IMG/VR virus record: IMGVR_UViG_3300032220_000338 | Location: 1 to 20,861 of that record | DNA: 20,861 bases | Direction: 5' to 3' (one strand) | Source: a virus | Shown: positions 3,296-19,096 of the stretch, one piece after another | Position numbering within the stretch: the first letter of the stretch is position 1 | Layout of the letters: each line of letters starts with the position of its first letter | Notes under the pieces: model-generated | Told to the model about the DNA's origin: nothing | The model's database searches: none | The model's input: only the letters and a program-made list of their open reading frames with translations | Translations under genes and position numbers: made by a program

Positions 3296-6200
3296 ATGAG
3301 TAGTTTCATAGGGAAGAATCCAAATGGTTTAAATCAGGTAAGTTCTAGTGTTATATCACTTTTTGTGAGTGGGAGCCCTGTAATAAATGCTTCACCATCT
3401 TCGGTGAATATTGTTAATGGTATTCCATTATCAGCATCTATAATAGAAACAAATTTTATAGAAACACCTTCGGGTTCATCACTTACGATAAATGCGGATG
3501 TAAAAATTAGTGGTTCTATTACGGCATCATTATTTAGAGGAGATGGTAGTGGATTATTTAATATACAAGCTGATTCAATTGGAGATATAAATAGATTAAA
3601 ATCAGGATCTGCACTTGCACAAATTTCACCTAATAACGGATTGGTAATAAATGTACCAACAAATATAAGTGGTGGACTAACTTTAACTGGTAATGCAAAT
3701 GTAGTAGGTGATATCAATATTAGTGGTAGACTTACATCAACCGAAATAAGTACAACATTAATTTCTTCTTCGGTGATTTATTCATCTGGTTCAAATAAAT
3801 TTGGAGATGCAACTTCTGATAAACATGATGTTACTGGTAGTTTAAATATTAGTGGTTCTATAATAGTAGGATTGCCAAACACAATACCAACCGATGATAC
3901 AACAAATGAGGTGTTGGTATTGAATATGACTACTGGTAAAATTAGTAGAAGATTTGCAGCTGCAACTTCAGGAACTTCTGGTACAAGTGGTACATCGGGC
4001 TCTTCTGGTTCAACGGGTTCGGCAGGTACATCGGGCTCTTCTGGTTCAAGTGGAAGTAGCGGTACATCAGGAACTTCTGGTAGTAGCGGTTCTTCTGGTA
4101 GTAGTGGAAGTAGTGGCACATCAGGAACTTCTGGTAGTAGTGGTACATCTGGGTCATCAGGAACTTCTGGTTCTTCAGGTAGTAGTGGTACATCGGCAAC
4201 ATCTGGAAGTAGTGGTACATCAGCAACAAGCGGTAGTAGTGGTACATCAGGTTCTTCTGGAAGTAGTGGTACATCGGCAACATCTGGAAGTAGTGGTTCG
4301 TCTGGTTCATCAGGAACTTCTGGTTCAAGTGGTAAAGATGGCACAAGTGGTAAAGATGGTTCAAGTGGTTCATCGGGAGTTAGCGGTAAAGATGGTTCAA
4401 GTGGTTCATCAGGAACTTCTGGAACATCTGGTAAAGATGGTACAAATGGTTCAGCTGGTACATCTGGATTAAGTGGAGGCGCCGGAACTCCTGGTACAAG
4501 TGGTTCATCTGGGTCTTCTGGTTCTAGTGGTAAAGATGGTAACGATGGAAGTAGTGGAAGTAGTGGAAGTAGTGGAAGTAGTGGTTTAACTGGAGCCGGT
4601 GGTGGTTCTGGTACTGCTGGTACTGGAGGTACATCTGGCACATCTGGAAGTAGTGGTTCATCTGGGTCTTCTGGTTCTAGTGGTAGTAGTGGATTTGGTA
4701 GTAGTGGTTCATCGGGTACATCTGGAACATCGGGAAAAGATGGTTCAACTGGAAAAGATGGTACATCTGGTTCATCGGGAACTTCTGGTAGTAGTGGAAG
4801 TAGTGGTAAAGATGGATTCGAAGGTTCATCGGGAACTTCTGGTTCTTCTGGCACAAGTGGTTCATCGGGAACTTCTGGTAAGGATGGTACTAATGGAACT
4901 TCTGGTAAAGATGGTTCAAGTGGTTCATCGGGTTCTTCTGGTGTAGCAGGTTCATCGGGTTCTTCTGGAACAAGCGGTTCTTCTGGCACAAGCGGTTCAT
5001 CAGGAACTTCTGGTAAAGATGGTTCAAGCGGTAGTAGTGGAACTAGTGGAAGTAGTGGAACTAGTGGAAGTAGCGGACAAGAAGGTACATCAGGTTCTTC
5101 TGGTAGTAGCGGTACATCAGGTTCTTCTGGTACACGTGGCACGTCTGGTTCATCAGGAACTTCTGGTTCATCAGGAACTTCTGGAGTAAGTGGAAGTAGT
5201 GGTACATCGGGTTCTTCTGGTAGTAGTGGTACATCGGGTTCATCAGGAACTTCTGGTAGTAGTGGCACATCGGGTTCATCAGGAACATCTGGTTCAAGTG
5301 GTACTTCAGGAACATCTGGAAGTAGTGGTACGTCTGGTTCTTCTGGTAGTAGTGGTTCTTCTGGATTACTATCCCTAACTGGTACAACTGATAATGGTGT
5401 AATCACACTAAACGGAACTGCACCAAATGCAACCGTTGAAGCAAATTTAAGATTCGATGGTAGTACATTGACAGTAACTGGAGATGCTACAATTAGTGGT
5501 AACCTTACTGTAAGTGGTACAACAACATATATTAATACAACAACTTTAAACGTAGGTGATAATATTATTACACTTAACGCAGATATTGGGGCATCAACTG
5601 CACCAACTGAAAATGCTGGTATAGAAGTTAAGAGAGGTAACGTAGCAACTAAAGCATTCTATTGGGAAGAAGCAAACGATAGATGGTATGCTGAAGATGG
5701 ATTGTATGTAGCTGGTAACGTAGTTCTTAGTGGTACAATAGATACTGGATTAGGTGCAACTGAAGTTTATTTAATGAATCAAAATGTTCGTACAACTGAT
5801 GCAGTAACATTTTCTACGGTAGATACTGGACAAGGTGCTAACGAATTGTACGCAATGAATCAAAATGTTCGTACAACCGATGCAGTTACGTTCTCTACTG
5901 TTGATACTGGGCAAGGAGCTAACGAATTGTACGCAATGGACCAGCCGGTTCGTTCTACTGATGGTGTAACATTTGCAACAGTTAATACTGGGCAAGGAGC
6001 TAACGAATTGTACGCAATGGACCAAAACGTAAGAACTACGGATTCGGTAACTTTTGCAAATATAAATGTAGGTGGGTTTAGTGTTGTAACTGGTGGTACA
6101 ATTGATAATTATACAGCAAATATAGATAATGGTTCTTATTATAATATAACTGACCAAATGACAGATGTTGAAGTTAGAGCTCAATTGGGTACTACTTCAA

Positions 6201-9200
6201 CTGTAATTACAAAAGTTAATGATAATACCGCACCAGCTGAAGGATGTTTTAAAGTAACTGGATATTTTGGATTCGATGATAGTAGAAGAATTAAAGTAGA
6301 TAAAAATAGTGAATATATTTTTGAATGTTGGATTAAAGTAATTGATGGTGGTGATACTGACCAAAGATTGTATTTGGGATGGACTATGTACAATTCAGCA
6401 AATGCAACATTCGGAAACACACAAAGATATTGGGGAGCAAGTGGTGAACAATTTGATACAGATAGTAGAAACGATGGACAGTGGTACAAAGTAAGTGGTA
6501 AGATTAGTGGTATTGGTGGTAGTGTAAATCAATTTATAGCAGGTACTGAATATGCTAGTCCTGTTTTATTAATAAACTACTCAACTAACGTTGGGGTTGT
6601 TCATATTTGTGGATTGAAATTATACAAATCAGAACAAACTTTTTCAAAAATACATTTACATTCTGGTACTAGATATGTACATGGTACTACTGACCAAAGA
6701 TACGCAATATTACAACCGGGCAGTTCTGATTCATTAAGAATAGCAACTTCAACTGGATATGGTGATTTTGGTTCAATGAATAGTTCTTTCTTCCATATGG
6801 AAACTGATAGAGCTACATTCTATATGAACAAACGTTTGGATGTTAATGGTAGTGTTTATGTTTATGGTACTACAACTAGAATGGAATCCGGTGGAATGTA
6901 TGCACCAATATTCTATGATACGGATGATACTACATATTATACAAATCCTGCAAATGGTGGATTCGTATTACAAGGTGGTACATCAAATAGAGTTAAGTTT
7001 TACACAAACGATACTGGATTTAGAGTAAACAACGCAGAAGGTAATGGTGTTAGTGATGTAAGATTGGGAGCAGCTTGGGGAAGACCTGGTGTTTATTCAT
7101 CTACATATCTATCATTAGGTTCGGATGGAACTTATGTTGAATTTGTAACTGGAAACGTACAAAGAGGATATTTCAATAACTCTGGGGATGGATACGCACA
7201 AACATCATTCAGAGCACCTATATTTTATGATTCAACAACTACTGGTTATTATTTAGATTTACCATCTACATCTGTTTTAAACGTAATTACATCAAATACA
7301 ATAAATGTAAATAACGGATATTCATTTGTATCACAAGCATACAATAACAATGGTGGATTTGCTATGAATAATGCATCTACCTATTGGGGATTGATGTGGA
7401 ACTACGCAGCAAATGATTGGAGATTGGGTTATGGTTCTACGATTGCACAACAAGGTTGGAATATCAGATGGGATGCTAGTGGTAATGCTTGGGCAAATAC
7501 GTCATTTAGGTCTCCAATATTCTATGATGTAGATGATACTGGTTATTTCTTAGATGCGGCTAATACAGGCACATCTCTAAGAATTCAAGGTGGTATTAAA
7601 CAAAGAAATATTGTTGGTAGACCATATGCAGTTTGGGGTTCTACTGGAACAACTGGAGCAGTAGTTATTAAATTCCCTGGTAATACTGGTAACTATGGTA
7701 TGATTCATGCGGTAATTGACATTTATGAATATAATGGAAATGCTGCGGCAACTGTAATCGTTGGAGGACATAACTGGAGTGGAGCTTGGTATAACTATAA
7801 TGCAAACGTAGTTGGTTATACTGATAAGCAAGTTAGAGTTGGTGTTAAAGATGGTAGATATTGTATTGTAATTGGTACTGGTGGTTCTTCTTGGTCTTAT
7901 GGACAAGTTGTTCTTCGTAAAATACAAAATGGTACATATTACGATGGTGTGATGGATGTTGCTGAAGGATATTCAGTAAATATTGAATCAGATACATATA
8001 GCTGGATTTCTGGTGACCTACAAGTATTAAGAAGTAGAGACATTTATGGTGTAAACTATGTTCAAGCGCCAATATTCTACGATACAAACTCTACATACTT
8101 CGGAGATTTCAGTTCGGAGATAAGAATGCCTTACCAAAATGGTGGTACAATGAGATTAAGAACCAATACACATTGGGATTCTCAATCTGGTATTGACCTT
8201 ATTGGAGGACAGGGTGAATTCCGTATGAGTTCGGATACCGGTAACTTAAACCTTAGAGTTGATGGTTGGATTATAGGATATGATTATCTTCAATCTTTAG
8301 GAGCTGTTTATGGTACAATATATTATGACCAAAATAACTCTGGATATTATACTGACCCAGCTTCATATTCTAATATGAACGAAGGTAACTTTGCAGGTAG
8401 AATGTGGTATAGCAACTATTTGGTAAGTAGAAATAGTGGTGGTATGATGGGTGATTACAATGTTAATGGTACATCATCTAAAGTAATTTGGACAATTGGT
8501 GAAAGCTGGCCTATCGGTAATATGTACGGATTGGGTTATGAGTATGGAAGTGGATACGGGCATCATTTGGCATTAAAGGATAATGGTACAACTTACTCTC
8601 GTTTAGGATTTGCTGGTGGGGCGTTTATCGGAGGTGGTGTAACTATTGGTTCTGCTATGTACGCACCAATCTATTATGATTCAAATGATAATGGGTATTA
8701 TGGTGATTTTGCATCAACATCTCGTACAAACTATATTGTTGGTAATAGAATTAAATTAGTAAACAACGTAAACAATGAACCTCGTTGGGATTTCTCAGCA
8801 TATGTAGTTGAAGCACAACACTGGTATGGAAATAACGCATCTATGACAATGTACATGGGTGAGGGTAGTAATACAATTCAAGTACCTGGTAGTGGTGGTA
8901 TAAGACCTGTAATCATTTACGATTATAATAATGCTGGTTACTATCTTAATATGGATGGTACATCTAACTTATACGCAGTTACTGATTATACTCGTAGAGG
9001 GGCATTTAACTTAGGTAGAGAGAAAGGAAATCGTAGAGATATTACTGGTGATACAAACCATTGGACTGGTACAAACGGATGGGGTACATCTTATGGTAAC
9101 TGGGATACTGCTTGGGAAGGTGGTTTTGCTGGATGGGATATTTGGGGAGGTGGAACTGGTCACCCACAAGGTGGTGGATATGTTCACGCTCAAGGTATCG

Positions 9201-11671
9201 TATCGGGTCAACACTACGCAACTGCTGGTGGTGGTACTGCTTATGGTTGGATGATGGTAGGAGCAGCTGATGCAACTGCTAATAGATATTGGGCAAGAGG
9301 TAAGTGGGGTGGTTCTACATCTGGTTGGTTAGAATTCGTAATGAGTAATTCAAACCCTGGTTATACATTGTATTCTTATATAATGTATGATTCGGACAAT
9401 ACAGGTTATTATGTAAACCCTGCATCTGGTTCAAACTTTAACTGGCTAACAATAAACGATTGGTATTATATCAATGGCCCATTGGGTATGTATTGGAATT
9501 CATATGGTAGAGGATTTGTAATAGCAGAACAACAAGGTAATCCATATGGACATATCACAACTTATGGTGGTGGTAGAAATGGATGGAGTGGATATGGTAT
9601 AGGTTCTCGTTATACGTTTATGAGTACCAATGGTGATAACGTTGGTGTGCATGATTCTGCTAGAGGTTGGGTATGGTATATGAGTGGAGCTGAATTGAAT
9701 CTATATTATGCTGGAGCAGATAGGATGTCAATGAGGTCACATGGCGCATATGCACATGCTGATGTTAGAGCAGCTATATATTATGACCACGATACTTCAT
9801 ACTATTTCAATGGTAATGGTGATAGTAGATGGCAAGGATTGGATGATTATTCCAAAATGAGAATTGGTTTAACTGCAAAGGGTAACTTTAGAAGAAATGA
9901 TTATACTGGAGATTCTAACTATTGGGTAGGTTCAATGGGATGGGGTACGACTGACCTTATCTCTGTATTTACTTGGGGTAGTGGTTTCTTTGATACTTGG
10001 AGTAATCCATCTAACCAACCTGCTGGTACATCTCATTGGACTGGAGTTCAAGCACTTCACTATGTAAATGCATATAATAGTGGATATGGATGGCAGTTAG
10101 TAGGAGGCCCTATTCAGGGAGCATGGTGGACATCCTATTGGAGTTCAAAACGTCCTTGGTATAAGTTGGCAATGTATAGTTTGAATGAATACTCAAGTGA
10201 TTTTTGGGCATCAATTTATTACGATTCAAATAACAGTGGATATTATGTAGACCCTAATGGACAATCACAATTTAGTGAAATAAGATTAGATGGAGTATTA
10301 TGGTCTAGAAATGGATATGGTAGAATATTCTTAGGTGGTAACTTACACATAGATTCATACTCACATAGTATCTATATGAACTATTACACAAATAACCCAA
10401 TGAGATTCTATGGTTATTTGGAAATGAATGGTTATGACATTTATGGTGTTGGTGCAATTTATAGTACAATTTTCTACGATAGAAATGATAGTGGATATTA
10501 TACAAATCCTAACGGATATTCACAAATGTCAGCTGTATTAGCAAACAATTGGTTTAGACCTCAAGGATGTTGTGGATTGTATTTTGAATCATACGGACAT
10601 GGTATATGGTCACCTGAATGTGAGGGTAACTCATATGGTAACATAGCAACTTATGGTGGTGGTAGAAATGGATGGAGTGGATATGGTATCCGTAGTAGAT
10701 TCGTCTTTATGGGTAGAGGTGGTGATTGTGGTGTGCATGATAACTCGTATGGATGGGTATGGTATTGGGATACTAACTTCTATATGTACTATGCTGGTTC
10801 TGAAAGAATGTCTTGTAGAGGTTGGGGTGTTTATGTAAACCAATATTTGGAAGCAGGTGGTTCGTTGAGAGCACCAATATTCTATGATAACCAAGATACT
10901 GGATACTATTTAGACCCGCATAATACTGATAACCAGGGTTTAAGAATGAGAGGTGGTACACTTCACGGACCTAACTGGTATTGGGGAGCTTATTTAAGAG
11001 TTGGTACAAACGAAAGAGTTGATGGTTGGGCAAGTATGTTCACATCGAATGGTAACTTACACATCGATTCTCGTAATGGTTATCCAATGTATCTTAACTG
11101 GCACAATGGTAACACTGTATATGTTGAAAGTGATATTAGAGCAAACATTTACTACGATAGATATGATACTGGATATTACTTCTATGGTAGAACAGATTCA
11201 AGAGTTTATAGATGGAACGCTAACTACTTATACGCTTACGGATGGATATTTGCGCAAGATAACATCATCGCTTACTATTCTGATGAAAGATTAAAAACTA
11301 AGTTAGGACCTATAATAGATGCACTGGGTAAACTTTCTAAATTAAATGGTTTCTATTACGTTAATAACGATTTAGCAAAAACATTTGGTTATAAAGAAAC
11401 CAAAGTACAATTAGGTCTATCAGCACAAGAAGTACAATCGGTTATACCTGAAATTGTACACTTAGCACCATTTGATACTAAGTTTGATGAAGACAATAAT
11501 ATTATCGGTTCTAAAACTGGTGAAAATTATTTAACAATTGAATATGATAAGGTAGTACCTTTATTGGTTGAAGCTATAAAAGAACAACAAAAAATTATAG
11601 AAAATCAAAATAAAGAGATTTCTGATATCAAAGAAATGTTGAATAATATACTAATAAACAAAAAAGAATAA
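3296..11671 (+). CDS. Giant modular tail fibre with C-terminal S74 intramolecular chaperone
   Basis: The 2791-residue protein is by far the largest in the window. Residues 1-223 form a beta-rich head with phrases such as SGSITASLFRGDGSGLF, typical of phage fibre bases. Residues 224-690 are a Gly-X-Ser collagen-like shaft. Residues about 691-815 are a beta module shared with the 1-1250 fibre, followed by four 27-residue repeats (816-923). Residues about 938-1116 resemble a carbohydrate-binding beta-sandwich. From 1203 to about 2635 the motif IFYDxxxxGYYxDP recurs 13 times between variable Trp/Tyr/Gly-rich segments. Residues 2662-2791 are the endosialidase-type S74 chaperone: SDERLKTK, GLSAQEVQSVIPEIV, YLTIEYDKVVPLLVEAIKEQ, then a coiled coil. 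In that family the chaperone drives trimerisation and is cut off at the serine of SDxRLK. The inferred role is the host-binding long fibre. Confidence 0.9.
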   Translation: MSSFIGKNPNGLNQVSSSVISLFVSGSPVINASPSSVNIVNGIPLSASIIETNFIETPSGSSLTINADVKISGSITASLFRGDGSGLFNIQADSIGDINRLKSGSALAQISPNNGLVINVPTNISGGLTLTGNANVVGDINISGRLTSTEISTTLISSSVIYSSGSNKFGDATSDKHDVTGSLNISGSIIVGLPNTIPTDDTTNEVLVLNMTTGKISRRFAAATSGTSGTSGTSGSSGSTGSAGTSGSSGSSGSSGTSGTSGSSGSSGSSGSSGTSGTSGSSGTSGSSGTSGSSGSSGTSATSGSSGTSATSGSSGTSGSSGSSGTSATSGSSGSSGSSGTSGSSGKDGTSGKDGSSGSSGVSGKDGSSGSSGTSGTSGKDGTNGSAGTSGLSGGAGTPGTSGSSGSSGSSGKDGNDGSSGSSGSSGSSGLTGAGGGSGTAGTGGTSGTSGSSGSSGSSGSSGSSGFGSSGSSGTSGTSGKDGSTGKDGTSGSSGTSGSSGSSGKDGFEGSSGTSGSSGTSGSSGTSGKDGTNGTSGKDGSSGSSGSSGVAGSSGSSGTSGSSGTSGSSGTSGKDGSSGSSGTSGSSGTSGSSGQEGTSGSSGSSGTSGSSGTRGTSGSSGTSGSSGTSGVSGSSGTSGSSGSSGTSGSSGTSGSSGTSGSSGTSGSSGTSGTSGSSGTSGSSGSSGSSGLLSLTGTTDNGVITLNGTAPNATVEANLRFDGSTLTVTGDATISGNLTVSGTTTYINTTTLNVGDNIITLNADIGASTAPTENAGIEVKRGNVATKAFYWEEANDRWYAEDGLYVAGNVVLSGTIDTGLGATEVYLMNQNVRTTDAVTFSTVDTGQGANELYAMNQNVRTTDAVTFSTVDTGQGANELYAMDQPVRSTDGVTFATVNTGQGANELYAMDQNVRTTDSVTFANINVGGFSVVTGGTIDNYTANIDNGSYYNITDQMTDVEVRAQLGTTSTVITKVNDNTAPAEGCFKVTGYFGFDDSRRIKVDKNSEYIFECWIKVIDGGDTDQRLYLGWTMYNSANATFGNTQRYWGASGEQFDTDSRNDGQWYKVSGKISGIGGSVNQFIAGTEYASPVLLINYSTNVGVVHICGLKLYKSEQTFSKIHLHSGTRYVHGTTDQRYAILQPGSSDSLRIATSTGYGDFGSMNSSFFHMETDRATFYMNKRLDVNGSVYVYGTTTRMESGGMYAPIFYDTDDTTYYTNPANGGFVLQGGTSNRVKFYTNDTGFRVNNAEGNGVSDVRLGAAWGRPGVYSSTYLSLGSDGTYVEFVTGNVQRGYFNNSGDGYAQTSFRAPIFYDSTTTGYYLDLPSTSVLNVITSNTINVNNGYSFVSQAYNNNGGFAMNNASTYWGLMWNYAANDWRLGYGSTIAQQGWNIRWDASGNAWANTSFRSPIFYDVDDTGYFLDAANTGTSLRIQGGIKQRNIVGRPYAVWGSTGTTGAVVIKFPGNTGNYGMIHAVIDIYEYNGNAAATVIVGGHNWSGAWYNYNANVVGYTDKQVRVGVKDGRYCIVIGTGGSSWSYGQVVLRKIQNGTYYDGVMDVAEGYSVNIESDTYSWISGDLQVLRSRDIYGVNYVQAPIFYDTNSTYFGDFSSEIRMPYQNGGTMRLRTNTHWDSQSGIDLIGGQGEFRMSSDTGNLNLRVDGWIIGYDYLQSLGAVYGTIYYDQNNSGYYTDPASYSNMNEGNFAGRMWYSNYLVSRNSGGMMGDYNVNGTSSKVIWTIGESWPIGNMYGLGYEYGSGYGHHLALKDNGTTYSRLGFAGGAFIGGGVTIGSAMYAPIYYDSNDNGYYGDFASTSRTNYIVGNRIKLVNNVNNEPRWDFSAYVVEAQHWYGNNASMTMYMGEGSNTIQVPGSGGIRPVIIYDYNNAGYYLNMDGTSNLYAVTDYTRRGAFNLGREKGNRRDITGDTNHWTGTNGWGTSYGNWDTAWEGGFAGWDIWGGGTGHPQGGGYVHAQGIVSGQHYATAGGGTAYGWMMVGAADATANRYWARGKWGGSTSGWLEFVMSNSNPGYTLYSYIMYDSDNTGYYVNPASGSNFNWLTINDWYYINGPLGMYWNSYGRGFVIAEQQGNPYGHITTYGGGRNGWSGYGIGSRYTFMSTNGDNVGVHDSARGWVWYMSGAELNLYYAGADRMSMRSHGAYAHADVRAAIYYDHDTSYYFNGNGDSRWQGLDDYSKMRIGLTAKGNFRRNDYTGDSNYWVGSMGWGTTDLISVFTWGSGFFDTWSNPSNQPAGTSHWTGVQALHYVNAYNSGYGWQLVGGPIQGAWWTSYWSSKRPWYKLAMYSLNEYSSDFWASIYYDSNNSGYYVDPNGQSQFSEIRLDGVLWSRNGYGRIFLGGNLHIDSYSHSIYMNYYTNNPMRFYGYLEMNGYDIYGVGAIYSTIFYDRNDSGYYTNPNGYSQMSAVLANNWFRPQGCCGLYFESYGHGIWSPECEGNSYGNIATYGGGRNGWSGYGIRSRFVFMGRGGDCGVHDNSYGWVWYWDTNFYMYYAGSERMSCRGWGVYVNQYLEAGGSLRAPIFYDNQDTGYYLDPHNTDNQGLRMRGGTLHGPNWYWGAYLRVGTNERVDGWASMFTSNGNLHIDSRNGYPMYLNWHNGNTVYVESDIRANIYYDRYDTGYYFYGRTDSRVYRWNANYLYAYGWIFAQDNIIAYYSDERLKTKLGPIIDALGKLSKLNGFYYVNNDLAKTFGYKETKVQLGLSAQEVQSVIPEIVHLAPFDTKFDEDNNIIGSKTGENYLTIEYDKVVPLLVEAIKEQQKIIENQNKEISDIKEMLNNILINKKE
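3965..5365 (+). repeat. 467-residue Gly-X-Ser collagen-like tract
   Basis: Residues 224-690 of the giant fibre are almost uninterrupted Gly-X-Y triplets. X is Thr or Ser and Y nearly always Ser, with occasional GKD triplets and a few breaks such as GFG. Proline is nearly absent. At DNA level, runs such as GGAAGTAGT in tandem (around 4548-4584) alternate with stretches using TCA, TCT or TCG for Ser. Confidence 0.9.
5741..6064 (+). repeat. Four 81-bp tandem repeats in the giant fibre
   Basis: Units start at 5741, 5822, 5903 and 5984, each encoding 27 residues of the form DTGQGANELYAMNQNVRTTDAVTF plus three more. Copies 2-4 are nearly identical at the start (GGxCAAGGxGCTAACGAATTGTACGC); copy 1 is more diverged. 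Similar LYAMDQNVRTTD repeats are known in other phage fibres. Confidence 0.9.
9558..9600 (+). repeat. 43-bp exact repeat, copy 1
   Basis: This stretch is identical to 10647-10689 and encodes TYGGGRNGWSGYG. It is the best-conserved core of a duplication of roughly 100 residues within the giant fibre. Confidence 0.85.
10647..10689 (+). repeat. 43-bp exact repeat, copy 2
   Basis: This is the second copy of the 9558-9600 sequence. Flanking residues align as well (GVHD, GWVWY, YYAGxxRMS), but this copy has five Cys residues where the first has none. Confidence 0.85.
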
Positions 11672-14683: not shown

Positions 14684-15178
14684 ATGGCAAATATTTTAGA
14701 TTTTGGAGATATGATGTACACCTCCTTCGAACCAAAAATGAAGAACCGCTTTTACATGCAGTTCACTGGTACAGGTATACCTGCATTTATGGTTAAGACG
14801 GGGAATAGACCTCAATTAAACTTTGAGAAAGTAACAATCGACCATATCAACGTTAAAAGACAATTGAAAGGTAAAGGTGAGTGGCAAGATTTAGAGGTAA
14901 CTCTTTATGACCCAATCGTACCTTCTGCTGCACAAGCAGTAATGGAGTGGGTTCGTTTAGGACATGAATCAATTACTGGTAGAGATGGATACGCTGACTT
15001 TTATAAGAAAGATATTGACATTTTTATGTTAGGTCCTGTTGGTGATAAGGTTGAACAATGGAAATTGATTGGCGCTTTCCCAACACAAGTAAACTTTGGT
15101 GACTTAGATGCATCTTCTAACGAAGTAGCAACTGTAACAATTACATTGACTTACGATTACGCAATTCTTGAATTCTAA
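14684..15178 (+). CDS. Tail tube protein (T4 gp19 family)
   Basis: The protein has 164 residues, the same size as T4 gp19 (163). Family hallmarks are the N-terminal FEPKMKNRFYMQF and IPAFMVKTGNRPQLNF segments. They continue with the IDHINVKRQLKGKGEWQDLEVTLYDP strand pair, AQAVMEWVRLGHE, and the closing ATVTITLTYDYAILEF. Rings of this protein stack to form the inner tube through which DNA passes. It sits between its own promoter-like element and a compact terminator, so it can be expressed at high level apart from the sheath. Placement right after the sheath is the standard myovirus order. Confidence 0.96.
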   Translation: MANILDFGDMMYTSFEPKMKNRFYMQFTGTGIPAFMVKTGNRPQLNFEKVTIDHINVKRQLKGKGEWQDLEVTLYDPIVPSAAQAVMEWVRLGHESITGRDGYADFYKKDIDIFMLGPVGDKVEQWKLIGAFPTQVNFGDLDASSNEVATVTITLTYDYAILEF

Positions 15179-15282: not shown

Positions 15283-16038
15283 ATGAACAAAAATCAATTT
15301 CCAACAGAAGTAATATCGTTACCATCGGAAGGTAGATGTTACCCTGAATCAAGTCCACTATCAGGTGGTACTCTTGAAATAAAGTATATGACTGCTAGAG
15401 AAGAAGAAATTCTAGCATCAACAAATCTTATCAAAAAAGGTATAGTTTTGGATAAATTATTCGAATCTATCATCGTAGATAAGGATGTAAACCCAGATGA
15501 TATTTTAATTGGTGACAAAAATGCTATTATGTTAGCAACTCGTATTTTAGGATATGGTCACGAATATAAAATTGAGATGGAAGATGAGATGGAAAACAAA
15601 AACGAAGTTGTTGTAGATTTAAGAAGTGTACAAACAAAAGATGTTGATATGAGTGTTTTAAATAGACAAAATCGTTATACATTCACAACTCCAACAACCA
15701 AAACAGTTATTGAATACAAATTACTTACACATGGTGATGAGAAGCAAATTGATACCGAAATCAAAGCTTTACAAAAAATGAATAAAGATGCATCGTTTGA
15801 ATTAACAACACGATATAGATTTATGATTACTTCGGTTGATGGTAATGGTGAGATGGGTTATATTACTAATTTTATTAACAACGGATTTTTAACAAAAGAT
15901 ACAAAAGCATTCAGAGAACATATTAAAAAAATGTCACCTGATGTTAAGATGGAATTTGAATACGAAAACCCAGATAGTGGAGAAAAGGAGGTACGCCAAA
16001 TTCCAATGGGCGTAGGCTTTTTTTGGCCTTCCGAATAA
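15283..16038 (+). CDS. gp26-like baseplate/tail assembly chaperone (zero-frame product)
   Basis: The 251-residue zero-frame protein matches the T4 baseplate protein family (PF12322, T4 gp26-like). It opens with EVISLPSEGRCYPESSPLSGG, then LEIKYMTAREEEILASTNLIKKG, LDKLFESIIVDKDVNPDDILIGDKNAI and ATRILGYGHEYKI. The rest is a less conserved acidic helical part ending IPMGVGFFWPSE. Its place between the tube and tape-measure genes is where most myophages encode the tail assembly chaperone that binds the tape measure before tube polymerisation. I infer that role. T4 gp26 has 208 residues, so this one is slightly long. Codons 246-247 lie in a run of seven T (16018-16024), and the zero frame stops 12 bases later, while the +1 frame stays open. 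This points to a second, longer product. Confidence 0.85.
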   Translation: MNKNQFPTEVISLPSEGRCYPESSPLSGGTLEIKYMTAREEEILASTNLIKKGIVLDKLFESIIVDKDVNPDDILIGDKNAIMLATRILGYGHEYKIEMEDEMENKNEVVVDLRSVQTKDVDMSVLNRQNRYTFTTPTTKTVIEYKLLTHGDEKQIDTEIKALQKMNKDASFELTTRYRFMITSVDGNGEMGYITNFINNGFLTKDTKAFREHIKKMSPDVKMEFEYENPDSGEKEVRQIPMGVGFFWPSE

Positions 16039-16237
16039 CTATTTTAAAATCCTACATAAACAAATTTTCGAATTATGTTATTATGGTGTGGGATTTATAC
16101 AATCAGATGTATATGCAATGCCGGTTCATATGAGATTATTTTATTACAATGAATTGGTTGAAGCAAAAAAGAGAGAAAATAAACAGCAGGAAGAATCAAA
16201 TCAGAGAGCTAATTCTAAGATAAAAGTGAGGAGATAA
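16016..16237 (+). CDS. Frameshift extension of the chaperone (+1 frame, no own start)
   Basis: The +1 frame is open from the codon after a TAG (16013-16015) to the TAA at 16235-16237. Read after the T run it gives 70 residues (GLPNNYFKILHKQIFELCYYG to the end), including the MPVHMRLFYYNELVEAKKRE segment, a charged helical tail of the kind seen in tail-assembly-chaperone extensions. The first in-frame ATG is at 16118, inside the conserved-looking part, so independent translation would lose the first 31 residues. A slip of +1 (or -2) on TTTTTTT would make a fusion of 317 residues. The stop codon lies in the loop of the terminator hairpin. The alternative is a sequencing or assembly error in the homopolymer, in which case the gene is simply one longer frame. 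Confidence 0.75.
   Translation, partial: AFFGLPNNYFKILHKQIFELCYYGVGFIQSDVYAMPVHMRLFYYNELVEAKKRENKQQEESNQRANSKIKVRR
16018..16024 (+). promoter_or_regulatory. Candidate slippery site for programmed frameshift (T7)
   Basis: Seven T follow GGC. Phe-tRNA on TTT at 16021-16023 could re-pair with TTT at 16022-16024 (+1) or 16019-16021 (-2). The shift must occur between the +1-frame TAG at 16013 and the zero-frame TAA at 16036, and this run is the only obvious slippery sequence in that interval. Confidence 0.65.
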
Positions 16238-16250
16238 TCCTCACTTTTTT
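16222..16250 (+). terminator. Rho-independent terminator overlapping the chaperone extension stop
   Basis: AAAAGTGAGGA (16222-16232) pairs with TCCTCACTTTT (16238-16248) around a five-base loop, followed by further T residues. The TAA ending the +1 frame (16235-16237) lies inside the loop. Confidence 0.9.
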
Positions 16251-16287: not shown

Positions 16288-16557
16288 ATGAAATTAAAAG
16301 TAACTAACGAAGATAGACAACTTTTTAAAGAAGTTGTTAAAAAGCATGGTATTATAAAAGAAAGTTTGATAATGACTTTACTTGGAAAGGTATTGGGATA
16401 TCAGATTGAGAAGGCCATCAAAAATGATAAAGATATTCAATCTGCGGTTAAAGCGGCAGATGCTGATATGGATAAAGCAAGAGCATTGATTGATGATTTA
16501 ATTGATAAAGGGTTGGAAGTTCCACCTTTTATGAAGCAATGGGCTACTAAAAAATAA
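16288..16557 (+). CDS. Small helical protein preceding the tape measure
   Basis: The protein has 89 residues and I do not recognise it. It is Lys/Asp-rich and predicted by eye to be almost wholly helical: an N-terminal segment, VTNEDRQLFKEVVKKHG, then a hydrophobic helix, SLIMTLLGKVLGYQIEKAI. A charged helix, AADADMDKARALIDDLIDKG, follows, and the protein ends PPFMKQWATKK. There is no Cys and no signal peptide. It begins the transcription unit that carries the tape measure and the baseplate protein; the tape measure starts 10 bases after its stop. Gene position suggests a tail-assembly accessory, for example a partner of the tape measure or chaperone, but nothing in the sequence proves it. 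Confidence 0.7.
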   Translation: MKLKVTNEDRQLFKEVVKKHGIIKESLIMTLLGKVLGYQIEKAIKNDKDIQSAVKAADADMDKARALIDDLIDKGLEVPPFMKQWATKK

Positions 16558-16567
16558 TTAAAGCTTT

Positions 16568-19096
16568 ATGGCAGATACAAGTTTAAATGACTTAAAGGAG
16601 ATGCAAAAATTAACAGCATCTATGACCAAAGATTATGATACTCTTTTAAAAGGTCATGGTAAAGTTAATAAAGCATTAAAAAGTGAAGTAGAACTTCAAA
16701 AATCAATTGTTGCTGGTATCAAAGATGCCGTAACGGCAGAGGAAGCAATTGAAAAATTGAAGAAAAGACATATTGCTTTAGGTACAAAACATTTGGACAA
16801 TAATAAAAATGTAATAGTTGCCTTACAAATGCAAAATAAAATTGTAAGACAATACCTTCAAGCATCGGCATTAATTGTAGCAAGAGAAACAAAAAGAAAA
16901 GAAATTTTAGAAAAAGTTGCTTCCAAAGTAGATGGTGTTACTGGTGCAATGAAAGGTCAAATGGACCATCTAAAACATGAACTAGAACATATTCCTGTTA
17001 TCGGAAAGATGATGAGTAATATGATACCATTTGATAAAATACAAGGCGGTGTAACCAGAATGGGTAAGGCATTTACTGGAGGTTTTACTGGTTCTTTTAA
17101 TAAAGTTTTAAAAAGTGGAGGAAGTTTTACAAAAGCATTAACAAGTGGTGTAGGTGGGGGTATCAAAGGATTGAGTGTAGCAGCTGCAAGAATAGCACCA
17201 ATGTTAGCAGGTCCTCAAGCAATAATAGCAGCAATAGTAGCAACACTTGCATTGGGTGTTATTAGAATGTATCAAATTGAAAAAGCTGCAGAGGCATTTA
17301 AAAAATCGACTGGTTTATTAAATAATGATACCAAAGATATTCAACGACAAATAAGTAAAATAAATGCAGATTATGCACAAATTGGTGTAAGTGCAGAAGA
17401 TGTAGCAGAATACGCAGCTGCTTTTAACAATGCATTTCATGGTACACAAAGAGCATCGGATGCTGTTTTGGGTTCTATGGCTGTACTTAACAAAAACTTT
17501 GGTGTGGCAGTTGAGGACCAAACAAAATTAAATCATTTATTCCAATCATCTGCACATCTTACTCAGGAACAAGCACAATATATGATTGGTTCGGTTGTTG
17601 CTGCAGCTGATTTAGCAAATGTTGCACCTACTAAAGTAATAGCTGACATGGCTGAGAATTCCGAAGCTATGTACAATTACTTTCATGGTTCAGTTGAAGA
17701 AATGGGAGCAGCAGCTGTTCAAGCTGCAAAAATGGGTACTAGCATTACACAAATGTCTGGTATGGCAGATAAATTACTTAACTTTGAAACCAGCTTAACT
17801 GATGAGTTAAACACTGGAGCAATTTTGGGTAAGAATTTTAATTTAAGTATAGCAAGGTCAGCGGCAGCTGCCGGTGATTTGGGTGGTATGTATGAAGCTG
17901 TTTTAGATGCTGTTGGTAATGTTGGGGATATTACTAAATTAACAAAATTTGAACAGGATTCTATTGTTCAATCAACTGGTATGCAAGTTTCTGAATTAGG
18001 AAATGCATTGCATATTAGAGAAAAATTCTCTAATGCAAGTAAAGCAGAATTGGCAGCTGGTGTGGAACTTCTAAAGAATGGTAAAGATATTCATGATATC
18101 AACGAAGATGATTTAAAAACTTTAGTTAAAAAACAAAAATCACAAAAAGAAATGCAGGGACAAATACATGCATTAGGTGATATGTTATCTGGATTTGGTT
18201 TAAAAATAATGGATGCATTCTTACCGGCTGGACAGGCATTAATTACAATAATAACTCCAATAGTTGCCGCATTGGGTTCTTTTATAAAAGGATTTATATC
18301 TCCAATGGCAAACGCATTTGGCAGAATGGCCAAAACTATTTCTGGTATTATGGAGAAGTTTGGTGGTATGGAAAAGACTGGTAAAATTTTAGGGAAAGTA
18401 TTTGAATTTATAGGAACAATACTTGGAGGTTCAATTGCAGTCGCTATTGAATATATGATGGGCGCATTTGAATCGATAGTAGATGTGGTAAGTGGTATAG
18501 TTAGTGTATTTAAAGGACTTTTTACAGGGGATATGAAGATGGTTGGCGATGGAATTAAAGATATATTTAAAGGTGTGCTTGGATTCATTTTTAGACTACC
18601 AATGGCGTTATATGATGGTTTTATGGATATGTTCCCAAAATTAGGCGAAATGGTATCATCATTCTTTAGTGGGGCATGGGATAAAGTAACTGGATTATTT
18701 GGATTTGGAAAGAGTGATAGTGGTAAAGTACAGGAAGCTGCAAGTAGTGGAATGGCCGATGGTGGTTCTGTACACGATGGTGTAATACAAAAAGGAAAAA
18801 TTATAACAACACATCCTGAAGATACCATAATGGCTATGAAAAATCCAAAAAATGTTCTTGGTAAAGGTTCTGGTGGATTGGGATTATTAGAAAATATAGT
18901 TGGTGGTATTGGTAATTTAATAGGTGGTGGTAGTGGTGGTGCAACTGATATGGGTCCATTGATTGCAGAAATTAAAGGATTAAGAGCCGATTTAGCAGCT
19001 GGTAAAATATCAATTAATATGGATGGTAGAAAAGTTACATCAGGCATTACTAAGATAGCAGGACAAAGCGCAGCAAATTCATATGTACAACGCTAA
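16568..19096 (+). CDS. Tail tape measure protein
   Basis: The protein has 842 residues. The N-terminal ~150 are charged helices (coiled-coil-like, Lys/Glu/Leu-rich). A Gly-rich segment follows, then a long hydrophobic helix at about 203-237 (ARIAPMLAGPQAIIAAIVATL). The central part is Ala-rich and helical. Further hydrophobic segments lie at about 558-583 and 620-690. Near the C terminus (about 729-761) is MADGGSVHDGVIQKGKIITTHPEDTIMAM, a phrase typical of tape-measure C termini, as I recall. In the family this protein sets tail length, sits inside the tube and is ejected before the DNA. If fully helical (about 0.15 nm per residue) it would span roughly 125 nm, a rule-of-thumb estimate. T4 gp29 has 590 residues. 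The stop overlaps the next ATG by one base (TAATG), implying translational coupling. Confidence 0.93.
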   Translation: MADTSLNDLKEMQKLTASMTKDYDTLLKGHGKVNKALKSEVELQKSIVAGIKDAVTAEEAIEKLKKRHIALGTKHLDNNKNVIVALQMQNKIVRQYLQASALIVARETKRKEILEKVASKVDGVTGAMKGQMDHLKHELEHIPVIGKMMSNMIPFDKIQGGVTRMGKAFTGGFTGSFNKVLKSGGSFTKALTSGVGGGIKGLSVAAARIAPMLAGPQAIIAAIVATLALGVIRMYQIEKAAEAFKKSTGLLNNDTKDIQRQISKINADYAQIGVSAEDVAEYAAAFNNAFHGTQRASDAVLGSMAVLNKNFGVAVEDQTKLNHLFQSSAHLTQEQAQYMIGSVVAAADLANVAPTKVIADMAENSEAMYNYFHGSVEEMGAAAVQAAKMGTSITQMSGMADKLLNFETSLTDELNTGAILGKNFNLSIARSAAAAGDLGGMYEAVLDAVGNVGDITKLTKFEQDSIVQSTGMQVSELGNALHIREKFSNASKAELAAGVELLKNGKDIHDINEDDLKTLVKKQKSQKEMQGQIHALGDMLSGFGLKIMDAFLPAGQALITIITPIVAALGSFIKGFISPMANAFGRMAKTISGIMEKFGGMEKTGKILGKVFEFIGTILGGSIAVAIEYMMGAFESIVDVVSGIVSVFKGLFTGDMKMVGDGIKDIFKGVLGFIFRLPMALYDGFMDMFPKLGEMVSSFFSGAWDKVTGLFGFGKSDSGKVQEAASSGMADGGSVHDGVIQKGKIITTHPEDTIMAMKNPKNVLGKGSGGLGLLENIVGGIGNLIGGGSGGATDMGPLIAEIKGLRADLAAGKISINMDGRKVTSGITKIAGQSAANSYVQR

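Follow-up and report, generated by a model that had tools for sequence, protein, structure and literature searches.

A gene of the T4 gp26/gp51 family with two products very likely made by a frameshift at a conserved TTT TTT T site

The gene upstream of the probable tape measure gene in the virus record IMGVR_UViG_3300032220_000338 ends shortly behind a run of seven T residues, and a second reading frame without an early start codon remains open past its stop codon. This raises the question of whether the gene encodes one protein or two. The window analyzed here is a stretch of 20,861 nucleotides of this IMG/VR record; the gene, its neighbors and the terminator described below lie on its plus strand. 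The zero-frame gene (15283–16038) encodes a protein of 251 aa and ends with GGC TTT TTT TGG CCT TCC GAA TAA, where the T7 run (TTT TTT T|GG) occupies positions 16018–16024 and the TAA stop codon positions 16036–16038. The +1 frame is limited upstream by TAG (16013–16015), is open from 16016 to 16234 and is closed by TAA (16235–16237). Its extension beyond the slip site (GLPNNYFKILHKQIF...KIKVRR and stop, 16025–16237) comprises about 70 codons, and the first possible start codons in this frame, GTG at 16088 and ATG at 16118, are both located deep inside the conserved part. The positions given in the first-pass annotation, which had proposed a candidate +1/-2 frameshift yielding products of 251 and 317 residues, were all confirmed.

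Slippage must be confined to the interval from the +1 TAG to the zero-frame stop, where only the two Phe codons permit re-pairing. The predicted fusion has 317 aa if the shift is +1 and 318 aa if it is -2, with the junction peptides QIPMGVGFFGLPNNYFK and QIPMGVGFFFGLPNNYFK, respectively, the latter carrying one more Phe (+147 Da). The following TGG CCT (16024–16029) is read as WP in the zero frame and as GL in the +1 frame; according to codon bias and conservation of position, it represents a candidate slow A-site codon followed by a Pro codon.

The zero-frame protein matches phrog_150 (baseplate hub, E = 3.1e-7). The protein of the window itself gave no match with PF12322 (T4_baseplate), and its membership in this family runs through relatives, since 44 of the 51 aligned short-form relatives match the profile (best 7e-20). 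On these grounds the gp26-like identity assigned earlier was retained. Structures of the short form and of the extension were predicted separately. The short-form model (pLDDT 92.5) shows a fold match to the SP-15 baseplate hub (TM 0.83) and also to T4-like hub assembly proteins. Several short-form relatives (alignment A2) match zinc-ribbon families; the window protein lacks the corresponding cysteines.

The neighbor of the gene on the 5' side is a tail tube gene of the T4 gp19 family (14684–15178; PF06841 Phage_T4_gp19, E = 7.9e-14; phrog_4542 tail tube, 1.4e-35). On the 3' side, a small ORF of 89 aa (16288–16557), for which PF and phrog profile searches gave no convincing family match, is followed by the probable tape measure gene (16568–19096, 842 aa), identified by its position and by similarity to phrog_167 (tail length tape measure, E = 3.4e-4). 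The same gene order was found in Flavobacterium phage immuto and SP-15, and Microcystis phage Mel-JY01 has a long gene in that place; immuto and Mel-JY01 are isolates that carry the slip site. A position behind the tail tube gene and ahead of the tape measure gene is the classical place of tail assembly chaperones. A terminator scan detected an intrinsic terminator at 16222–16248, a stem-loop with a T tail after it, whose loop contains the stop codon of the extension. The hairpin is retained with changed stem bases in five relatives (L009, L010, L011, L014, and L085), which suggests that most transcripts stop in the interval from the chaperone gene to the tape measure gene. Elsewhere in the window (3296–11671 and 3–1250), tail-fibre-like proteins are encoded that contain Gly-Thr-Ser-Gly collagen-like repeats of great length; one of 2791 aa carries at its end a segment resembling an intramolecular chaperone (S74-type), as judged by eye.

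Relatives with identities from 98% to about 40% were collected by IMG/VR scans. The sequence TTTTTTTGGCCT was found exactly in 148 of the 203 related loci that were scored. It occurs in separate metagenomes and in isolate genomes, together with a homologous extension, and therefore the site cannot be attributed to chance or assembly error. After selection of genes clearly differing in DNA, 110 distinct genes remained, and their +1-frame extensions are homologous throughout (consensus FFGLxxxYKxxLHxQIFxLxYYGxGGFTxxxVYNMPxxLRxFY), with protein conservation starting at the slip site itself (FFGL; alignment A3). In the pairs for which it was measurable, dN/dS was 0.04–0.54 for the extension and 0.02 to 0.28 for the zero frame, that is, broadly alike, and by this comparison the extension is under purifying selection and both frames are constrained. 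Other searches were less productive: the bacterial genome scan gave no relative of the short form, the plasmid scan gave none with the SP-15 protein, the SP-15 seed recovered SP-15 alone, and the XacN1 seed recovered nothing. In L030 and L150, the zero frame of the chaperone gene is broken early by a stop or a change of frame, perhaps due to sequencing error or decay.

The slip site proved to be nearly invariant at the nucleotide level. Among the 110 distinct genes, its second codon reads TTT 105 times and CTT 5 times but never TTC, although TTC accounts for 21% of the Phe codons in the rest of these genes (744 TTT : 203 TTC; P = 9e-11). The Pro codon after the TGG of the slip site is CCT in 108/110 genes versus 341/1018 Pro codons elsewhere, which fits dual coding of Pro and Leu. 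A slip on this CCT codon itself was considered and rejected, because the CTN or CAN codons that would be reached cannot pair with Pro tRNA and the CCA variants (L162 and L202) retain the extension. The zero-frame stop follows the slip by 3–7 codons in all 110 genes. The +1 frame near the junction is without ATG in 84 of them and without ATG, GTG, or TTG in 54. Two further features expected of a frameshifted chaperone gene of the G/GT type, a conserved slippery sequence near the zero-frame stop and an overlapping second frame that lacks its own start and is conserved as protein, are thus present. The canonical -1 heptamer X_XXY_YYZ in the -1 phase is not present at the slip site of the window (GGC TTT TTT TGG, with the extension in +1). 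The comparative evidence, namely the conserved extension and the near-invariant slip site, upholds the proposed frameshift, and a real frameshift with a two-product gene is considered very likely.

No strong downstream RNA structure was found in the window, and the stimulator of slippage is thus unidentified; a universal downstream structure across the family was not supported either. In one group of relatives (L018, L023, and L041), but not in the window, a stable hairpin of the GGGCCTGATTACAGGCCC type begins some 7 nt downstream of the slip codons; it is a possible clade-specific stimulator. The sequence GGAGG is present approximately 30 nt upstream of the slip in the window. No conserved upstream Shine-Dalgarno-like element exists in the family, as GGAG, AGGA, or GAGG was found within 25 nt upstream in 11 of 110 genes only.

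As for the direction of the shift, the extension lies in the same frame after +1 and after -2, and the T7 run would let the P-site tRNA on TTT re-pair two bases back, a -2 shift as used by phage Mu (PMC5009743). In all 114 examined sites of the +1 type, codon 1 or codon 2 allows complete re-pairing after +1. Re-pairing after -2 is impossible at seven of these, which belong to several lineages and all retain the +1-frame extension: TTC TTT TGG (in two separate lineages on the tree), TTC TTT CGT (SagM-GXN1), and TTT CTA TTC (LR756508). Because tRNA-Phe can re-pair at these seven sites after +1 and not after -2, the +1 direction is preferred: of the earlier +1/-2 alternative, the first member is favored, slippage of tRNA-Phe on TTT T by +1 is likely, and the same two products arising by -2 is an improbable reading. 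A mixture of mRNAs, some of them in the +1 frame, could also result from RNA polymerase slippage on T7, and most relatives do have the homopolymer. Seven T residues are a short run for polymerase slippage, and the arrangement is the same where the run is broken (TTC TTTT, TTT C TTT, TTT CTT CTC). Since TTC TTT TGG and TTT CTT TGG replace T7, polymerase slippage is given very little weight and the mechanism is most likely ribosomal; for the same reason, the earlier notion of a homopolymer slip as such does not hold.

It is harder still to accept that the extension is generally a gene apart, initiated independently or by coupling, and that no fusion is made, even though this is true in L128 and L133, where the extension has an ATG of its own shortly after the zero-frame stop. 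The corresponding sites read TTC TTG TAT and TTC CTT TGG CCA, and the two loci form a supported clade within the frameshifting tree, beside the TTT CTT TGG forms. In L159/L160, a GIY-YIG homing endonuclease ORF (about 2199–2900) is inserted exactly at the junction between the chaperone gene and the extension. Behind the endonuclease gene the extension resumes and has potential start codons; the slip site of these loci reads TTC TTC TGG, and separate expression is probable after this insertion. Cyanophage annotations, and that of Microcystis phage Mel-JY01, also give internal starts. However, the window has no +1-frame start before GTG 16088, inside the conserved block, most of the distinct genes have no ATG near the junction, and protein conservation runs from the slip site onward. 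The constraint on the T run would be unexplained without slippage, and this run is lost wherever the extension can start separately (L128, L133, and L159/L160). Relatives with a separate start, which the first-pass annotation would have counted against frameshifting, therefore do exist, but all of them are derived exceptions that branch from within frameshifting groups and have a decayed slip site. Homopolymers are error-prone, and a sequencing or assembly error or a decayed pseudogene could in principle create such a junction; this explanation is refuted by recurrence of the same site in more than 100 distinct contigs and in isolates and by purifying selection on both frames, and it can practically be dismissed. 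The reading preferred here thus remains a ribosomal +1 shift.

More distant phages were examined by searching the extension profile against a set of 729 ORFs, translated in six frames from distant phages and from Straboviridae regions. The best five of the 729 are out-of-frame ORFs behind gp26-like genes at the same FF position: LR756508 (3e-22), Streptococcus phage SagM-GXN1 (4e-5), Bacillus phage SP-15 (1e-4), LR756511 (0.005), and XacN1 (0.18). LR756511 and XacN1 (the latter judged by eye) have the extension in the -1 frame, and so do L080/L082, where the heptamer is A_AAT_TTC. The gp26-like gene of cyanophage Syn9 ends with TCT TTT TTC GGG TAG, and the next ORF, annotated as T4 gp51-like (47 aa), lies in the -1 frame and is open back across T_TTT_TTC; "gp51" is the existing annotation of this downstream ORF in cyanophages. 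The same T_TTT_TTC with a -1 extension was found in S-PM2, S-SSM7, KVP40, Stenotrophomonas phage Ps15, Desulfovibrio phage 7757, and Citrobacter phage Ci1, as well as in 80 of 80 fetched IMG/VR relatives. In all 77 distinct cyanophage-type genes, codon 1 is TTT and codon 2 is TTC, against 599:268 (TTT:TTC) for Phe codons elsewhere (P = 2e-12 for codon 1 and 5e-37 for codon 2). The cyanophage relatives therefore possess the canonical -1 heptamer.

The first-pass annotation held that a lack of similarity between the extension and chaperone C termini would speak against the frameshift; such similarity was found, with T4 gp51 and by way of the cyanophages. When the profile of the cyanophage extension was used, the C-termini of gp51 from seven Straboviridae were the best 7 of the 729 ORFs (1.5e-10 to 4e-5), and hhalign aligned the cyanophage extension with gp51 at P = 9e-10. 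The extension family of the window (A3) aligned with the cyanophage extension at P = 2.7e-6, and the fused families at 1.4e-16. Direct comparison of the window extension with T4 gp51 was only suggestive (P = 0.07), and phrog_634, the C-terminal domain of T4 gp51, was matched by 4 of 54 extension members (best 0.0032). From these profile comparisons, the extension qualifies as homologous to the gp51 C-terminus through the cyanophage bridge, the direct link being weak alone. Modeled alone, the extension forms three helices (pLDDT 87), and it is predicted to be a three-helix domain equivalent to the C-terminus of T4 gp51; the Foldseek search with the extension only returned short phage proteins, none of them significant. 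Weak matches with DUF6760 were noted in 10 of 54 extension members (alignment A3; best E 0.003), and the search for DUF6760 in the record itself and in control genomes was empty. DUF6760 is a small family of contractile injection system loci, which may contain the same chaperone pair.

The two T4 proteins, gp26 with 208 aa and gp51 with 249 aa, share matches to PF12322 and phrog_150 and are therefore regarded as paralogs. Both are listed as hub assembly chaperones (PMC3004832). T4 gp26 ends with ...KEFFELL at the slip position and corresponds to the short form; gp51 continues through the extension and, with a short-form domain and an extension-like C-terminus, corresponds to the long form. Thus, T4 has two paralogous genes without a frameshift, whereas the phage of the window would have one frameshifting gene.

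Taken together, the findings favor, with high confidence, a T4-type tail (hub/tape-measure) assembly chaperone that this gene encodes as two forms, the longer one produced by +1 frameshifting. Most ribosomes would stop at TAA 16036 and release the 251-aa short form, the equivalent of T4 gp26. A fraction would pause while TTT occupies the P site and TGG the A site; the P-site tRNA-Phe may then shift its pairing forward by one base (TTT T to TTT), and reading would go on with GGC CTT CCG, giving the 317-aa long form, the equivalent of T4 gp51, with its putative three-helix C-terminal domain. The lambda gpG/gpGT pair suggests by analogy that the short form coats the tape measure and that the long form joins it to tail-tube or hub subunits, with the shift frequency setting the short:long ratio. 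The site, the conserved extension, the purifying selection acting on it, and the homology to gp26/gp51 are read from sequence comparison, and it is at this level that the earlier proposal of 251- and 317-residue products stands, the latter length applying to +1. In the absence of protein or ribosome data, the occurrence of slippage, its direction, and its rate are inferred, and chaperone function and the product ratio are inferred from homology and gene position.

As proposed for the window gene, lambda gpG/gpGT (and the wider Xu-Hendrix-Duda family) comprises a short and a frameshift-extended product of a single gene that lies shortly before the tape measure gene, with a stop close behind the slip site; the lambda shift is -1 and not +1, and the proteins belong to another family. 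In SPP1, a siphovirus, the tail chaperone gp17.5/gp17.5* has a putative -1 shift at UUUUUUC (PMC6316719). This heptamer, U_UUU_UUC, is identical to that of the cyanophage-type relatives, whereas the window uses a T7 phased for +1. The -2 shift of the phage Mu tail chaperone reaches the same relative frame as in the window, but Mu-type re-pairing fails across the family at the seven sites named above. In the +1 shift of prfB (release factor 2) at CUU U, the P-site tRNA slides onto UUU as proposed here, and the TTT CTT TGG variants mimic this site; the A-site codon is sense (TGG) in the window and a stop in prfB. CCC and UUU have been reported as the next most slippery codons (PMC10885494). The first-pass annotation had regarded a T4-type chaperone of this kind as a less described variant. 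No earlier description was found in open-licence full texts, which leaves one in subscription journals possible; the case is nevertheless not isolated, given the -1 heptamer at the same junction in cyanophages, KVP40, and others.

Frameshifting in tail chaperone genes is described in a review as widely conserved "except T4" (PMC5009743). If one gene here does the job of two genes in T4, this would explain the listing of T4 as an exception. The comparisons suggest that the two-product scheme is old and widespread and that T4 swapped in two separate genes, 26 and 51. It is probable, with less confidence than the frameshift in the window itself, that the one-gene arrangement is ancestral in T4-type myoviruses, the slip direction switching between +1 and -1 at a fixed position, and that T4 and its close relatives duplicated the gene, 26 keeping the short form and 51 the long one. 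Within Straboviridae, KVP40 and Citrobacter phage Ci1 retain the -1 site. A single evolutionary scheme would then comprise one frameshifting gene in many T4-type phages and two genes in T4; gp26 and gp51 would correspond in T4 to lambda gpG and gpGT, and T4 would no longer be an exception. Both proteins would gain a testable role, and hundreds of "gp26" and "gp51" pairs would be re-annotated as one two-product gene. The +1, -1, split, and duplicated forms would constitute a natural series of solutions to one problem, useful for studies of the frameshift mechanism.
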